A DNA stretch of 64,000 nt, from positions 62,001 to 126,000 of the forward strand of contig NZ_MAKX01000002.1 of assembly GCF_001693415.1 (NCBI RefSeq). Reading direction: 5' to 3'. Below are positions 10,238 through 22,595 of the stretch, piece by piece. The notes under the pieces are model-generated. The model searched no databases, was not told where the DNA came from, and saw nothing but the letters and a program-made list of their open reading frames with translations. Every line of letters starts with the position of its first letter. Position 1 is the first letter of the stretch. Source of the DNA: Tenacibaculum soleae. GTDB taxonomy: Bacteria > Bacteroidota > Bacteroidia > Flavobacteriales > Flavobacteriaceae. A program made the translations under genes and the position numbers.

Positions 10238-12316
<2,079 letters not shown>

Positions 12317-15977: not shown

Positions 15978-17600
15978 CTAAACGGCAGCTTCAATTTTTC
16001 TAGTTTCTTCTTTATTTGTTTCAAATTGATTAGACGTGTTTTTTTCTCCCCCTGCTTTTAATGCATTATCTCCTGCAAAAAATACTTTATGATCATCACC
16101 TAAGTTAGACCCTGCCATTCTTTGATGTTTTACACAAGCAACTCCTTTTCTAATTTCTTGCCTTTGCACATCCTTTACATATGCTAACATTCCGTCTTCA
16201 CCAAAATAACCAGCAGTTAAATCATTCATATGAAGTGCTGTCGTATGATAAGTTGGTAGCGTAATTAAATGATGAAAAACTCCTGCTTTTTGTGCACTAT
16301 CTACCTGAAAAGTTCTAATTTTTTCATCAGCAAGCTTACACAATTCAGAACCATCATATTTAGCATCCATTAAATTATTTTTATCATAAAAAGACATATC
16401 TTTTCCTTTCATTAACATTTCATCATATACTTGATTACGGAAATTTAACGTCCAATTAAAAGAGGGTGAATTATTATACACCAACTTTGCATTAGGTACA
16501 ATTTCTCTTACTCTATTAACCATATTGGCTATTTGGCCTACATGTGGTGTTGGAGTTTCAATCCACAATAAATCGGCACCGTTTTGCAAACTTGTAATAC
16601 AATCTAACACTACTCTATCAATATTAGTACCTTCTTTAAACTTGTACAACCCGTTTGATAATCTTACTGGACGCACTAATTTACCCTGCCTTTTTAGCAA
16701 GACATCATCTTCTTTAGCTTCATTTATAGCAATCTCTTCAGCTTCGACAAAAGCAAGGTATTGGGATGCTAAATCTCCTGGTTTTTGACTTACTGGTAAT
16801 TTTTGTGTTAAACCTGCTCCTTCTGAATCTGTACGTGCCACAATAACTCCGTCTTCAACACCTAATTCTAAAAACGCATAACGAATTGCATTTAACTTTG
16901 CTATAAAATCTTCGTGCGGCACTGTAACTTTTCCGTCTTGATGCCCGCATTGTTTTGCATCAGAAACTTGATTTTCAATTTGGATAGCACAAGCGCCTGC
17001 TTCAATCATTTTTTTAGCTAAAAGATATGTTGCTTCCTCATTACCAAAACCAGCATCAATATCAGCAATTATAGGCACAATATGTGTTTCAAAATTATCA
17101 ATTTGCTCTTGCACATCTTCACCATTTTCTAATCGTCTAAACAAATCATTCAACTCAATTGCATCTGCTTGACGTAAAAAATCATAAATCTCAGCTATTA
17201 AAGAAGAAACTGCTGTTTTTTCATGCATTGATTGATCGGGAAGCGGCCCAAATTCAGAACGAAGAGCAGCCACCATCCAACCAGATAAATACAAATATTT
17301 TTTACTGGTAGTTTGATGATGTTTTTTTACTGAAATCATTTTTTGCTGCGCTACAAATCCGTGCCAGCAACCTAAAGATTGTGTATATTTTGATGAATCC
17401 GCATCATATTCAGCCATATCATTTCTCATAATAGTAGCGGTATATTTTGCAATTTCTAAACCGGTTTTAAAACGATTTTGAGTAATCATTCTAGCAGCAT
17501 TTTCAGAAGTTATAGCATTCCAACTGCTTCCATATTTTTCTTTTAGAGATTTTACTTTTTCTAATACCGAACTATAGTTTTGTTGCGCTAAATTTTTCAT
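15978..17600 (-). CDS. aceA: Isocitrate lyase
   Basis: First enzyme of the glyoxylate shunt: isocitrate to glyoxylate plus succinate, needed for growth on acetate and fatty acids. 540 residues from ATG 17600 (MKNLAQQNYSSVLEKVK), the longer Pseudomonas-type subfamily. The active-site motif is KQCGHQDGKV near residue 222, with the PIIADIDAGFGNEEAT metal/substrate region before it and NNSPSFNW after. The frame is open upstream to 17678 but that part covers an intergenic hairpin and is rejected. It is 82 nt downstream of aceB and probably cotranscribed with it, ending at the terminator shared with the GNAT gene. Confidence 0.97.
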   Translation of the reverse strand: MKNLAQQNYSSVLEKVKSLKEKYGSSWNAITSENAARMITQNRFKTGLEIAKYTATIMRNDMAEYDADSSKYTQSLGCWHGFVAQQKMISVKKHHQTTSKKYLYLSGWMVAALRSEFGPLPDQSMHEKTAVSSLIAEIYDFLRQADAIELNDLFRRLENGEDVQEQIDNFETHIVPIIADIDAGFGNEEATYLLAKKMIEAGACAIQIENQVSDAKQCGHQDGKVTVPHEDFIAKLNAIRYAFLELGVEDGVIVARTDSEGAGLTQKLPVSQKPGDLASQYLAFVEAEEIAINEAKEDDVLLKRQGKLVRPVRLSNGLYKFKEGTNIDRVVLDCITSLQNGADLLWIETPTPHVGQIANMVNRVREIVPNAKLVYNNSPSFNWTLNFRNQVYDEMLMKGKDMSFYDKNNLMDAKYDGSELCKLADEKIRTFQVDSAQKAGVFHHLITLPTYHTTALHMNDLTAGYFGEDGMLAYVKDVQRQEIRKGVACVKHQRMAGSNLGDDHKVFFAGDNALKAGGEKNTSNQFETNKEETRKIEAAV

Positions 17601-17645
17601 AAATTTGTTTTTTATTATTGAAATTTTATAGGTTTTGATAATTAC

Positions 17646-17676
17646 GTCTCGTAATCTATTGCCGTAGTTACGAGAC
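17646..17676. promoter_or_regulatory. Hairpin in the aceB-aceA spacer
   Basis: GTCTCGTAA and TTACGAGAC are 9-bp inverted arms around a 13-nt loop, within the 82-nt spacer. On the aceBA transcript it is not followed by a T run, so it is not a standard terminator. It could protect or process the mRNA to set the aceB/aceA ratio (inference), or be a protein site. Confidence 0.5.
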
Positions 17677-17682
17677 ATTTTT

Positions 17683-19278
17683 TTATAAATATTTGTATGC
17701 AGGTAACGTTAAAAACTCTACAAATTCTTCATTTAGAATTAAGTCATCAAATAACTTAATTGCCGTTTCAAACTCTCCTTTCTCATATCGAATTTCACCA
17801 ACATATTCTTTTATTTTTTTAATTTCTTCTTGTTTTAATTGTTGATACATTGCTACTGTAAAAACTCTTCCATCTTCAAGTGTTATATTTTTATGTAACC
17901 ATTGCCAAATCTGTGTTCTAGAAATTTCTGCCGTTGCTGCATCTTCCATTAAATTATACAAAGCCGCAGCACCTTGCCCTATTAGCCAAGATTCTATATA
18001 TAAGATTCCTACATTAATATTTTTACGAATTCCGTTTTCTGTAACTGTTCCTTTTGGAAGCGCTACTAACTCAGCTTCAGCAATGTTTAAAGCTGTTAGT
18101 TTTTTGTCTATTTGATTTGCATTTGGCATTGATTTATTAAAAACATCCATCGCAACTTTTACCAATCCTGGATGCGCTACCCAAGTTCCGTCATGACCAT
18201 TTTTAACCTCTTGCTCTTTATCTTTTAAAACTTTAGAAAACGCTAATTCATTGGCTGCATCATCATTTTTTACAGGAATTTGAGCAGCCATACCACCCAT
18301 GGCGTGTACGTTTCGTTTATGACAAGTTTGAATTACACGTAAAGAATACGCTTTCATAAAAGGTGTTTTCATAGTTACTTGATCTCTATTTGGAACTACA
18401 AAATTTCGATGATTTCTAAATTTTTTGATGTAAGAAAAAATATAATCCCAACGCCCACAATTTAAACCAGCCATGTGATCTTTTAACTCATAAATAATTT
18501 CATCTAACTGAAAACTAGCCGTAATAGTTTCGATCAATACCGTTGCTTTTATTGTTTTTTGTGGCACTTTTAAATATTCTTGTGCAAATACAAAAACATC
18601 GTTCCACCAACGAGCTTCATTGTAATGCTCTAATTTTGGTAGGTAAAAATAGGTTGCCGAACCTTGCTCTAATAAAGCTTTGATGTTATTGAAAAAGAAC
18701 AACCCAAAATCGACCAACGAACCTGACATTTGAACACCGTCAATTAAAAAATGCTTTTCATTTAAATGCAAACCCCTTGGTCTTACCAATAAAGTAGCTG
18801 AGGTTTCATTTAACTGATAAGTTTTATTTTTTTTATCATTATAAAACGAAATAGTTTTATTTACAGCATCCTTTAAGTTTACCTGCCCATCTAATAAATT
18901 AGCAATTGTAGGTGAATTACTATCTTCAAAATCGGCCATAAAAGTTTTTGCACCCGAGTTTAACGCGTTGATCACCATTTTACGATCTACCGGCCCAGTA
19001 ATCTCCACTCTCCTATCTAATAAGTCGTCAGGTAATTCTGCACACACCCAATCACCCTCTCTAATAGTTTTTGTTTCTGATGGAAAAGTTGGATAATTTC
19101 CCATATTAAAATACGCTTGATCTATTTCTCGCTCTTCTAATAATTGCAATCTTTTATTATTAAATTTTTCGTGTAATCGAGTTAAAAATATTTTAGCATC
19201 ATTTGTTAAAATATTTTTATAATTACCCTCATTAAATCCTACACACTCAATTTCTTTTTCTAAAACATGTTGATTCAT
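17683..19278 (-). CDS. aceB: Malate synthase A
   Basis: Second glyoxylate-shunt enzyme: glyoxylate plus acetyl-CoA to malate. 531 residues, typical for the A isoform. The family pattern is clear: FMADFEDSNSPTIAN near residue 92, the LLVRPRGLHLNEKH loop with the catalytic Arg, FYLPKLEHYNEA, TVLIETITASFQ with the Mg-binding Glu, GLNCGRWDYIFS with the second acid, and AHPGLVKVA. Start ATG 19278. It leads the aceBA unit and diverges from the ScfR/RamB-type regulator; a long palindrome lies between them. Confidence 0.97.
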   Translation of the reverse strand: MNQHVLEKEIECVGFNEGNYKNILTNDAKIFLTRLHEKFNNKRLQLLEEREIDQAYFNMGNYPTFPSETKTIREGDWVCAELPDDLLDRRVEITGPVDRKMVINALNSGAKTFMADFEDSNSPTIANLLDGQVNLKDAVNKTISFYNDKKNKTYQLNETSATLLVRPRGLHLNEKHFLIDGVQMSGSLVDFGLFFFNNIKALLEQGSATYFYLPKLEHYNEARWWNDVFVFAQEYLKVPQKTIKATVLIETITASFQLDEIIYELKDHMAGLNCGRWDYIFSYIKKFRNHRNFVVPNRDQVTMKTPFMKAYSLRVIQTCHKRNVHAMGGMAAQIPVKNDDAANELAFSKVLKDKEQEVKNGHDGTWVAHPGLVKVAMDVFNKSMPNANQIDKKLTALNIAEAELVALPKGTVTENGIRKNINVGILYIESWLIGQGAAALYNLMEDAATAEISRTQIWQWLHKNITLEDGRVFTVAMYQQLKQEEIKKIKEYVGEIRYEKGEFETAIKLFDDLILNEEFVEFLTLPAYKYL

Positions 19279-19306
19279 AATAACTTACTTTTATTTATTG
19301 ATACAC

Positions 19307-19314
19307 CAATAGTA
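19307..19314 (-). promoter_or_regulatory. Candidate -7 element of aceBA
   Basis: TACTATTG on the minus strand differs from TAnnTTTG at one position and lies 29 nt before the aceB ATG. The -33 position, about 19 nt upstream, falls inside the 40-bp palindrome, so the operator would control access of RNA polymerase. Confidence 0.45.
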
Positions 19315-19323
19315 TAAAAAATA

Positions 19324-19363
19324 ATTTAATTAATTTAGCGAACGTTCGCTAAATTAATTAAAT
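19324..19363. promoter_or_regulatory. Perfect 40-bp palindrome between aceB and the ScfR-type regulator (operator)
   Basis: Every base of 19324-19343 pairs with 19344-19363. The core is TTTAGCGAAC/GTTCGCTAAA, flanked by TTAATTAA-type arms. A further half-site, TTCGCTAA, lies at 19381-19388, next to the regulator's own -7 box. RamB and related ScfR regulators bind TTGC-type sites near aceA/aceB in actinobacteria, so this is a strong candidate target for the adjacent regulator, with autoregulation through the half-site. Confidence 0.75.
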
Positions 19364-19394
19364 ATTCAAATTTTTATTAATTCGCTAATTTTAA

Positions 19395-19402
19395 TACCTT
19401 TG
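19395..19402 (+). promoter_or_regulatory. -7 element of the ScfR/RamB-type regulator gene
   Basis: TACCTTTG matches TAnnTTTG, 27 nt before the TTG start at 19429. The half-operator TTCGCTAA lies 7 nt upstream of it. Confidence 0.55.
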
Positions 19403-19428: not shown

Positions 19429-20907
19429 TTGGAAGAAGAATACATTAGACTTGTTTTTGGATTAAAACTAAAACAAATACGTACTGATAAAAAATTATCA
19501 CTCTTCGGATTAGCTAAATTAACAGGCTTATCTAAATCTTATTTAAATGAGATTGAAAAAGGAAAAAAATATCCCAAAACAGATAAAATTGTAATTCTTT
19601 CTGAAAAACTAGAAGTTACGTACGATCATTTGGTTTCTTTAAAACTAGATAAAAACTTAGCACCAATTGGTGAAATATTACAATCGAAAGTTTTAAAAGA
19701 AATTCCGTTAGATTTATTCGGTATTAAAGAAAGCAACTTAATCGACATTATTGCCAACGCACCCGCCAAAGTAAATGCGTTTATTAGTACTATCATAAAA
19801 ATAGCTCAAAACTATAATTTAACACGTGAAAATTTCTTTTTAGCTTCTTTGCGTTCTTATCAAGAAGCACATAATAATTATTTTGAAGATATTGAAAGTA
19901 GTGTTATTGCCTTTGCCAAAGCTTATCATATAAACTTAAACAAACCTATAAGTGCTAGCGATTTAGAAGATATTTTGATCGAAGAATATGGTTATACGAT
20001 TAATACCGAGGAACTTTCTAAACATCAAAAATTATCAGAAATAAGAAACATTTACATTCCCAAAAACAAAACATTACTTATTTATAACGATATAAGTGAA
20101 GCTCAAAAAACGTTTATCTACGCAAAAGAATTAGCCTACAACTATCTAAAAATTGAAAACAGGCTATATACTTTTCCTTGGATAAAATTCGAAAGTTTTG
20201 ACCAAGTTTTAAATAACTTTATTGCTTCTTATTTTGCTGGGGCACTTATAATTCCGAAAGAAAATCTTATCAAAAACTTAACACATTTTTTCTCATTAAA
20301 GGAATGGCAACCGTTACAATTACATAAAATCACTAAAAACTACAATTGCTCAGACGAAACCTTTTATCAGCGATTAACCAACATACTACCAAAACATTTT
20401 AATATAAAAAATCTGTTTTTTTTACGATTTACACATCAAGAAAACTCACCTGTTTTTAAACTATCAAAAGAGTTACACATAACCCAACAACAAGCACCAC
20501 ATGCGAATAGAAATAACGAGCATTATTGCAGAAGATGGGTTTCTATAAAAACAATTCAAGATTTAGAGAAAGCTGTTGATAAAAATTCTTCTTATGGTAT
20601 ACAAATATCATCTTATGAAAATTCGACGAATGAATACTTAGTATTATCTGCCGCCACTTCTGATCCTTTTAAAGAAAAAAACAATCGTAGCGTAAGCATT
20701 GGAATATTACTATCGCCTCATTTAAAGAAAAAAATTAAATTCTTTAAAGAGAATACTTTTACAAATAAACAAGTTGGTGTTACTTGTGAAACCTGTGCCG
20801 TAAAAAACTGTACCGAACGCGTAGCCGAACCTCGTGTTTTAAATAAACAATTTAGAAATAATGAAATTGCAAAAACAATAGACAACATACTACAATCATA
20901 CATTTAA
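19429..20907 (+). CDS. ScfR/RamB-type transcriptional regulator (XRE HTH + IrrE-like + C-terminal zinc-type domain)
   Basis: A 492-residue regulator of short-chain acyl/acetate metabolism by family. The XRE helix-turn-helix is at about residues 10-65 (LSLFGLAKLTGLSKSYLNEIEKG). The middle (about 150-300) is the IrrE/ImmA-like domain, but the metal-binding HExxH is absent, reading AKELAYNYL. The end carries the Cys pair CETCAVKNCTERV seen in the family's C-terminal domain. In actinobacteria RamB controls aceA and aceB; here the gene diverges from aceBA across the 40-bp palindrome. It starts with TTG: the HTH begins only 10 residues in, and no ATG lies close by. The carboxyltransferase gene follows 59 nt downstream. 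Confidence 0.88.
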   Translation: MEEEYIRLVFGLKLKQIRTDKKLSLFGLAKLTGLSKSYLNEIEKGKKYPKTDKIVILSEKLEVTYDHLVSLKLDKNLAPIGEILQSKVLKEIPLDLFGIKESNLIDIIANAPAKVNAFISTIIKIAQNYNLTRENFFLASLRSYQEAHNNYFEDIESSVIAFAKAYHINLNKPISASDLEDILIEEYGYTINTEELSKHQKLSEIRNIYIPKNKTLLIYNDISEAQKTFIYAKELAYNYLKIENRLYTFPWIKFESFDQVLNNFIASYFAGALIIPKENLIKNLTHFFSLKEWQPLQLHKITKNYNCSDETFYQRLTNILPKHFNIKNLFFLRFTHQENSPVFKLSKELHITQQQAPHANRNNEHYCRRWVSIKTIQDLEKAVDKNSSYGIQISSYENSTNEYLVLSAATSDPFKEKNNRSVSIGILLSPHLKKKIKFFKENTFTNKQVGVTCETCAVKNCTERVAEPRVLNKQFRNNEIAKTIDNILQSYI

Positions 20908-20966: not shown

Positions 20967-22595
20967 ATGGATCTTAACTTCAATAAAAACGAAGACCACA
21001 ATAAACTTTTAGCATCAGATTTAAGAAGGCGTTTTGCCCAAGTTAAATTAGGGGGTGGTCAAAAGCGTATCGATAAGCATCACGAAAAAGGAAAATTAAC
21101 CGCAAGAGAGCGTATAGATTACCTTTTAGATAATGATTCTAAATCTATAGAAATAGCCGCTTTTGCTGGCGAAGAAATGTATAAAGAACACGGTGGTTGC
21201 CCTTCTGGTGGTGTTGTAGTAAAAATAGGTTATGTTAGCGGTAAGCAATGCATTGTTGTTGCCAATGACGCAACAGTAAAAGCAGGCGCTTGGTTTCCTA
21301 TCACTGGGAAAAAGAATTTAAGAGCGCAAGAAATATCAATAGAAAATAAGTTACCTATTATCTATTTAGTAGATTCTGCTGGTGTTTATTTACCTTTACA
21401 GGATGAAATTTTTCCTGATAAAGAACACTTCGGACGTATTTTTAGAAATAATGCCGTAATGAGCAGCATGGGGATTACACAAATATCTGCCGTTATGGGC
21501 AGTTGTGTTGCCGGAGGTGCTTATTTGCCAATTATGAGCGATGAAGCTTTAATTGTAGACAAAACTGCAAGTATCTTTTTAGCCGGAAGTTATTTAGTAA
21601 AAGCTGCTATTGGTGAAAGTATTGATAACGAAACACTTGGTGGAGCAACTACGCATTGCGAAATTTCAGGCGTTACCGACTACAAAGCTAAAGATGACAA
21701 AGATGCTTTAGATAAAATAAAGTTTATTGTTGATAAAATTGGAGATGCTGATAAAGCTGGATACAATCGTAAAGAAGCTTTTCCTCCAAAAGAAAACGAA
21801 GAAGACATTTTCGGAATCCTTCCGAAAGAAAGGAATGCACAATATGACATGCTAGAAATTATCAATCGTTTGGTTGATAATTCTGAATTTGAACAATATA
21901 AAGAAGGTTACGGTAAAACAATTATTACCGGTTATGGCCGTATTGATGGTTGGGCTGTTGGTATTGTTGCCAATCAACGAAAATTAGTAAAAACTAAAAA
22001 AGGAGAAATGCAGTTTGGCGGCGTTATCTATAACGATTCTGCCGATAAAGCAACACGTTTTATTGCAAATTGTAATCAGAAAAAAATTCCGTTGGTATTT
22101 TTACAAGACGTTACCGGTTTTATGGTTGGTTCTAAATCTGAGCATGGCGGTATCATAAAAGATGGCGCAAAAATGGTAAATGCGCTAAGTAATTCTGTTG
22201 TACCAAAATTCACCATCGTTATTGGTAATTCATACGGAGCAGGTAACTACGCTATGTGTGGTAAAGCCTATGATCCTAGGTTAATTGCTGCCTGGCCAAG
22301 TGCCGAATTAGCAGTTATGAGTGGTAACTCAGCAGCAAAGGTTTTACTACAAATAGAAACTGCATCATTAAAGAAAAAAGGAGAAGAAATTACCCCTGAA
22401 AAAGAAGCTGAATTATTTGACAAAATAAAATCTCGTTACGACAAGCAAATCTCTCCATACTATGCTGCTGCAAGAATTTGGACAGACGGCGTAATAAACC
22501 CGTTAGACACTAGAACATGGATTTCAATGGGAATAGAAGCTGCAAATCATGCACCTATTGAAAAGAAATTTAATTTAGGCGTTATTCAAGTATAA
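20967..22595 (+). CDS. Acyl-CoA carboxylase beta (carboxyltransferase) subunit, methylcrotonyl-CoA type
   Basis: A 542-residue biotin-dependent carboxyltransferase. Two crotonase-like halves are seen: the first with LPLQDEIFPDKEHFGRIF and AVMGSCVAGGAYLPIMSDEA, the second with VTGFMVGSKSEHGGIIKDGAKMV and GAGNYAMCGKAYDP. These match methylcrotonyl-CoA carboxylase beta subunits (leucine degradation); propionyl-CoA or another acyl-CoA substrate is possible. The biotin carboxylase/BCCP partner is not in the window. A -7-like TAATTTAG (20935-20942) lies upstream, overlapping TTTAGC, which resembles the aceB operator half-site, so ScfR control is possible but weakly supported. Start ATG 20967. Confidence 0.9.
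   Translation: MDLNFNKNEDHNKLLASDLRRRFAQVKLGGGQKRIDKHHEKGKLTARERIDYLLDNDSKSIEIAAFAGEEMYKEHGGCPSGGVVVKIGYVSGKQCIVVANDATVKAGAWFPITGKKNLRAQEISIENKLPIIYLVDSAGVYLPLQDEIFPDKEHFGRIFRNNAVMSSMGITQISAVMGSCVAGGAYLPIMSDEALIVDKTASIFLAGSYLVKAAIGESIDNETLGGATTHCEISGVTDYKAKDDKDALDKIKFIVDKIGDADKAGYNRKEAFPPKENEEDIFGILPKERNAQYDMLEIINRLVDNSEFEQYKEGYGKTIITGYGRIDGWAVGIVANQRKLVKTKKGEMQFGGVIYNDSADKATRFIANCNQKKIPLVFLQDVTGFMVGSKSEHGGIIKDGAKMVNALSNSVVPKFTIVIGNSYGAGNYAMCGKAYDPRLIAAWPSAELAVMSGNSAAKVLLQIETASLKKKGEEITPEKEAELFDKIKSRYDKQISPYYAAARIWTDGVINPLDTRTWISMGIEAANHAPIEKKFNLGVIQV

Follow-up and report, generated by a model that had tools for sequence, protein, structure and literature searches.

What does the perfect 40-bp palindrome between the glyoxylate-shunt genes and a regulator gene in Tenacibaculum soleae do, and which protein reads it? 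We analyzed a 64,000-nucleotide stretch of this genome (hereafter the window, whose own coordinates are used throughout). On its minus strand lie aceA, an isocitrate lyase gene of the PRK06498 type (15978..17603; 991 bits vs 446), and aceB, encoding malate synthase A (17683..19278; TIGR01344, 775 bits vs 594.5), followed by the palindrome and, on the plus strand, the regulator gene (19429..20907). A sequence-only reading had placed an exact 40-bp palindrome at 19324-19363 between aceBA and this regulator and proposed that the regulator gates the glyoxylate shunt and itself. The gene order was confirmed, as was the palindrome, whose two 20-nt arms (19324-19343 and 19344-19363) are 100% complementary with a spacer of 0 nt. 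We favor, with a probability of about three in four, the reading that the core of the palindrome is the operator of the adjacent regulator, and that this acyl-CoA-responsive protein activates aceBA, controls itself and, in a few genomes, blocks the pyruvate carboxylase gene pyc.

The surroundings of this arrangement vary. Behind the same aceB, the isocitrate lyase of loci L052-L071 is of two kinds, ~80% or ~30% identical to that of the window, with regulator and palindrome unchanged. Directly 3' of the window's regulator is a pccB-like acyl-CoA carboxyltransferase gene (20967..22595, plus strand; assigned from its profile and gene order), possibly co-transcribed with the regulator. It occupies this place in only 29 of 146 loci, from Tenacibaculum, Polaribacter and related records, which rules out the pccB linkage as a general feature.

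The palindrome at 19324-19363 (no strand assigned) is the longest perfect one in the window, ahead of palindromes of 26 and 18 bp, and the maximum reached in 40 order-3 Markov surrogates of the window was 26 bp. The conserved unit is 14 bp long, AGCGAA-NN-TTCGCT, which consists of two head-to-head half-sites and reads AGCGAACGTTCGCT at 19337-19350 in the window (again strandless). Across 138 sites whose half-sites are exact, perfect symmetry most commonly spans 14 bp (99/138), reaches 24-26 bp at four places and extends to 40 bp only in the window genome. The long AT arms belong to this Tenacibaculum genome alone and are unconserved in 22 aligned family loci; conservation among relatives holds for the 14-bp core and not for the 40-bp length. 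The family alignment was anchored on CGAACGTTCG, leaving out two partial-regulator loci without it, so that those ten columns are fixed by choice, but the bases flanking CGAACGTTCG outward are also conserved (G in 21/22, C in 22/22). The inner two bases in the phylum sample (n=163) are CG in 125 sites, AT in 20, TT in 6, TA in 4, AA in 4, GT in 3 and CT in 1, and AGCGAACGTACGCT is the form of the site in one group of Flavobacterium. Elsewhere in the window, a 26-bp perfect palindrome around TTATGCATGCATAA (12276-12301) lies where a gene for a FadH/OYE-family oxidoreductase begins, whose best profile, TIGR03997, scores 433 bits and is below its cut-off; the similar words TATGCATGCATA or ATGCGCGCAT precede pyruvate carboxylase in genomes G039, G063 and G547.

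To measure conservation, we tolerated no more than a single mismatch across the ten bases of the two half-sites. At this threshold, GCGAA-NN-TTCGC occurs in 163 of 170 regions upstream of the regulator gene, a partly redundant set of 22 family, 68 phylum and 80 named loci, compared with 3.8/170 in Markov controls; it is absent from the remaining seven (L122, L132, L134, L135, L155, L162 and L164). The phylum loci come from a sample of 395 genomes, 70 of which have the regulator and 69 of which supplied stretches. Among representatives with less than 80% identity to each other, 76 of 83 carry the palindrome, 57 of them with aceB in the examined stretch and 19 without, the stretch being short for some. 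The core is thus conserved beside the regulator across the phylum sample, whereas the sequence-only reading had named loss of the palindrome in relatives as the observation that would count against it. From such sequence comparison, we infer that the adjacent acyl-CoA-type regulator very probably binds the palindrome as its conserved site.

The regulator is a 492-residue protein with HTH_3, M78-like and ScfRs-like domains. Its start in the window is taken to be the TTG at 19429, the place where homologues begin with ATG, and its nearest named relative, 91% identical, is from Tenacibaculum sp. AHE14PA (the records closest to the window's genome may be absent). Among Pfam profiles, HTH_3 scores over its cut-off, while M78 reaches 21.5 against a cut-off of 22 and ScfRs 21.4 against 24; of 63 relatives at E 0.001, 49 match M78 and 16 match ScfRs. 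A phmmer search of the single protein against the PDB returned HTH proteins only, and a profile of the 63 relatives reached PrpR weakly (E 0.0026). Because the match to PrpR was weak at the sequence level, we used a fold search. An AlphaFold2 model built on the 63 aligned relatives (mean pLDDT 84.6) has the HTH, IrrE-like and GAF-like fold of MtPrpR, which is also its best structural match (Foldseek E 9e-13; VIA alignment Z 26.0 over 299 residues, rmsd 4.5, 17% identity), followed by PprI and CapP at Z about 14. The predicted Fe-S ligands of the window's regulator are C367 and C453-X2-C456-X4-C461, which match Cys363 and C447-X2-C-X4-C455 in MtPrpR (PMC6765138). All four cysteine columns (367, 453, 456 and 461) are filled in 62 of the 63 aligned regulators, although the exact C-X2-C-X4-C spacing is missing in 18 of 147 relatives, and S37, Y38, I42, E43 and K47 in and beside the third HTH helix are invariant. 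The PrpR fold and the four cysteines identify the regulator as a divergent ScfR/IsaR-family protein. We consider the 14-bp core the putative operator of a Bacteroidota branch of this family (PrpR/RamB), whose members, by analogy with MtPrpR, probably bind CoA or a short acyl-CoA together with a [4Fe-4S] cluster. The family is already known; the branch appears to be new within the literature searched.

RamB of Corynebacterium and Mycobacterium is known for targeting acetate genes. The sequence-only assignment to RamB/ScfR stands at the level of fold, although the RamB equivalog profile NF038139, which covers the regulator's HTH and M78-like part, scores 55.7 bits (49.2 bits in the genome search), far below its cut-off of 700. 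PccR of Cereibacter (Rhodobacter) sphaeroides, whose motif is reportedly TTTGCAAA-N4-TTTGCAAA, acts on propionyl-CoA carboxylation, unlike the glyoxylate-shunt neighbors of the window's regulator. This ScfR-family protein controls pccB (PMC12632250), and here a pccB-like gene follows the regulator. MtPrpR (Rv1129c) of M. tuberculosis (PDB 6CYJ, 6CYY, 6CZ6, 6D2S) resembles our regulator in its fold, its Fe-S cysteine pattern and the divergent orientation of its gene from the genes controlled, but shares about 17% identity and targets the methylcitrate cycle. According to the site descriptions in PMC6765138, the M. tuberculosis PrpR/RamB site is TTTGCAAA-N-TTTGCgAA and the MtRamB box is TTTGC(A/G)AA, whereas the sites here combine a head-to-head GCGAA-NN-TTCGC with boxes 17-18 and 34-36 bp further on. 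The downstream half-site of many flavobacteria, TTCGCAAA, is the reverse complement of the box TTTGCgAA. In Paracoccus denitrificans, RamB (Pden_1365) is an ScfR-family protein with its gene divergent from those of malate synthase and isocitrate lyase, as here; its two boxes upstream of the operon, 18 bp apart and 82 bp upstream of the gene, differ from the adjacent head-to-head boxes of the window, and the box sequences in the oligonucleotides given in PMC10370305 are unlike GCGAA/TTCGC. The class 2 RamB site of P. denitrificans, with its pair of nearly identical boxes 18 bp apart upstream of aceB, has no counterpart at this locus. Tandem TTCGCNAA boxes 6-14 bp apart gave 0 places (control 1), and TTNGCNAA-NN-TTNGCNAA, at 5 places in the window genome vs 3 for the reversed pattern, was too loose to be of use.

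The position of the core relative to predicted promoters suggests what binding would do. The sigma-A -7 box of F. psychrophilum, TAnnTTTG, spans -12 to -5 (PMC9723704). On this basis, together with the sequence and the box spacing in relatives, TACTATTG (19307..19314, minus strand) is the predicted -7 box of aceB; sequence and box spacing in relatives likewise indicate TACCTTTG (19395..19402, plus strand) for the regulator. On the aceB strand, 40 of 57 representatives have a -7 box, allowing up to one mismatch, whose first base is exactly 29 bp from the palindrome center (control mean 0.39; 6 the highest at any offset). The center is then at -41.5 relative to the predicted aceB promoter, and this holds for the window too. 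A center at -41.5 is the position of a class II activator. TTG occurs at -35 to -33 on the aceB side in 43/57 representatives and on the regulator side in 0/57; the window's predicted aceB promoter is without it, and the palindrome edge touches the predicted -33 position there, in agreement with the overlap that had been expected. The regulator's own -7 box starts 49-52 bp from the center in 42/57 representatives (control mean 3.8, maximum 9).

From these computed positions we infer activation of aceBA and repression of the regulator's own gene. Bound at -41.5, the regulator would activate aceBA as a class II activator and so turn on the glyoxylate shunt once acetyl-CoA is the form in which carbon comes in. 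The chief alternative, which we consider unlikely though worth weighing, is that the regulator binds the same operator and represses aceBA, with repression lifted by acyl-CoA or when the Fe-S cluster is lost, as M. tuberculosis RamB is believed to act on fermentable carbon. The contact of the core with the predicted -33 element would suit a repressor, and MtRamB has been described as more likely a repressor (PMC6765138). Against this, the placement at exactly -41.5 in 40/57 representatives is that of a class II activator, and RamB of P. denitrificans activates the same two genes (PMC10370305).

Further half-sites accompany the palindrome. A third one, TTCGCTAA (19381..19388, plus strand), had been noticed beside the regulator's -7 box; its sequence checks out, and it lies 36 bp from the right half-site, covering about -26 to -19 of the predicted regulator promoter, at an offset that is enriched in relatives. 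TTCGC recurs at +34 to +36 from the right half-site in 32 of 76 representatives (control mean 0.4, maximum 3), the window having +36, and at +17/18 in 20 of 76 (control mean 0.3, maximum 2, 300 runs); a mirror half-site 17-19 bp beyond the left one is found in 7 of 76 (control mean 0.19, maximum 3). The half-site within the regulator's promoter would provide self-control, most likely repression, in contrast to MtPrpR, a tetramer reported to activate its own gene (PMC6765138). By analogy, one tetramer of our regulator might spread over three or four half-sites. Together, the conserved core, the promoter geometry and the half-site in the regulator's promoter support the proposal, made from sequence, that the regulator gates both the glyoxylate shunt and itself. 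In several relatives, the regulator's ATG stands ~5 bases past the -7 box, as if the mRNA were almost leaderless.

In the family sample, the regulator is encoded in 23 of 149 genomes, in two of them in pieces (a fragment in G013, split over two contigs in G124). The CG-core form of the palindrome, GCGAACGTTCGC, occurs in 22 of the 149, at one place per genome: 21 of the 23 regulator genomes have it immediately 5' of the regulator, and 1 of the other 126 has it elsewhere (Fisher p = 3e-22, ignoring kinship). The exception, in G112, is inside purL and was taken as chance, as was a palindrome place in G101 that we judged by eye to be inside a YebC-like open frame. G013 (locus L073), which has no GCGAACGTTCGC, shows a deletion scar that joins a fragment of the regulator to a fragment of aceA, with aceB and the palindrome gone. 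A looser pattern, AGCGAANNTTCGCT, is found in 32 of 149 family genomes, 10 of them without the regulator; away from the regulator it has 13 places vs 18 for the reversed pattern, which is chance level.

Since aceB is present in exactly the 21 family genomes that have GCGAACGTTCGC at the regulator, the family sample alone cannot assign the site to the regulator or to aceB, and this shared distribution would also fit a different transcription factor binding the palindrome with the regulator gene a mere neighbor. We regard that explanation as very improbable, because the palindrome stays with the regulator as the neighboring gene changes. Genome G038, with no aceB match, retains the regulator with ACGAACGTTCGC. 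Of 27 loci picked as lacking aceB/aceA, 22 had a divergent open frame and 15 were scanned, ten of them chosen after reading the first residues; the divergent neighbor encodes a fadD-like ligase in 7, an adenylate kinase in 4, a protein without family in 1, and aconitase, pckA and enoyl-CoA hydratase in one each, and 12 of the 15 loci carry the palindrome. The resemblance of the half-site to the PrpR/RamB box, as described for M. tuberculosis, also points to the regulator. A structural role as a cruciform, attenuator or terminator hairpin, suggested by the perfect 20-nt arms, can be dismissed because conservation is confined to the 14-bp core and does not extend to the arms, and the element sits between divergent promoters with separate half-sites phased to it.

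With the palindrome read as the regulator's operator, a second copy becomes of interest. The window genome contains AGCGAANNTTCGCT twice, and the sole copy besides that between aceB and the regulator precedes pyruvate carboxylase (NF009554, 1737 bits vs 965), as does the only exact copy in G038; the count in the window genome is no higher than the control (2 vs 3 reversed, at one mismatch). We searched 60 genomes and examined the 23 in which full-length pyc was recovered as a locus. With at most one mismatch, the palindrome is at pyc in 5 of 17 genomes with the regulator (G000, G536, G038, G549 and G544) and 0 of 6 without (p 0.27). Our argument for this site relies on its identical placement in the five genomes and not on the presence contrast: by eye, all five palindromes begin one base past the predicted -7 box, with the center at +4.5, a repressor position at which bound protein should block pyc transcription. 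In the window genome and a few related ones, the regulator would thereby block the pyruvate carboxylase route. G549 (Xanthomarina spongicola) has no aceB within its 9.5-kb regulator locus and keeps the 10-bp core there; its regulator is identical to that of G038 at 395 of 491 positions, so the absence of aceB in both may be one shared loss.

The sequence-only reading had also suggested looking for the motif at other acyl-CoA genes. In other families it precedes some of them; in the window's own family it stays at chance level away from the regulator. Across the phylum sample, 55 of the 70 regulator genomes were searched, and the exact palindrome was found in 47 of them, at 86 places vs 11 for the reversed pattern. 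Among the matches listed, from genomes with extra places, we surveyed 37 such places on 36 stretches. Eight of these 37 coincide with the starts of genes for beta-oxidation or ETF, namely fadB, fadE (twice), acyl-CoA dehydrogenase, enoyl-CoA hydratase and ETF in G321 and fadE and fadB in G183; three of the eight fall inside the opening codons of the longest open frame. Also among the matches listed, three of the 37 precede aconitase, two lie between yigZ and sdhC, closer to yigZ, and two between pckA and a peptide transporter, for a total of 15/37 at acyl-CoA/TCA-type genes and 22/37 elsewhere. The 22 include ilvD (2), glutamate synthase (2), TonB_C proteins (2), helicases (2), insides of open frames and genes without family. 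The ilvD places are in two genomes of one family (L306, L311) and the glutamate synthase places in two of another (L296, L309), a hint of targets beyond acyl-CoA metabolism.

These places invite a broader proposal: a phylum-wide acyl-CoA switch with the operator AGCGAA-NN-TTCGCT, in which an old ScfR-type regulator, probably a tetramer on 3-4 phased half-sites, turns the shunt on from -41.5 and pyc off from +4.5, and has moved to beta-oxidation, aconitase and PEP carboxykinase in other families. We hold this only tentatively and think it somewhat improbable as a whole, because matches remote from the regulator are no commoner than chance in the window's own family. If it is true, a single regulator switches the cell from one anaplerotic route to the other and back.

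The literature searched, which included few subscription journals and had the 2015 ScfR survey outside its scope, yielded no such operator from Bacteroidota, and neither a regulator of the glyoxylate shunt nor a ScfR site for the phylum; within it, the operator, its spacing to the promoters and the site at pyc all appear to be new. The outcome is a regulator, an operator and a set of targets, all open to testing, for the central carbon metabolism of Bacteroidota. The palindrome may be the site that decides when these bacteria switch on the route for growth on acetate or fats, and whether marine flavobacteria use the glyoxylate shunt or pyruvate carboxylase matters for their carbon economy. If Actinobacteria and Bacteroidota do share a half-site, an acyl-CoA sensor would have kept its DNA code even as its targets moved from pathway to pathway.
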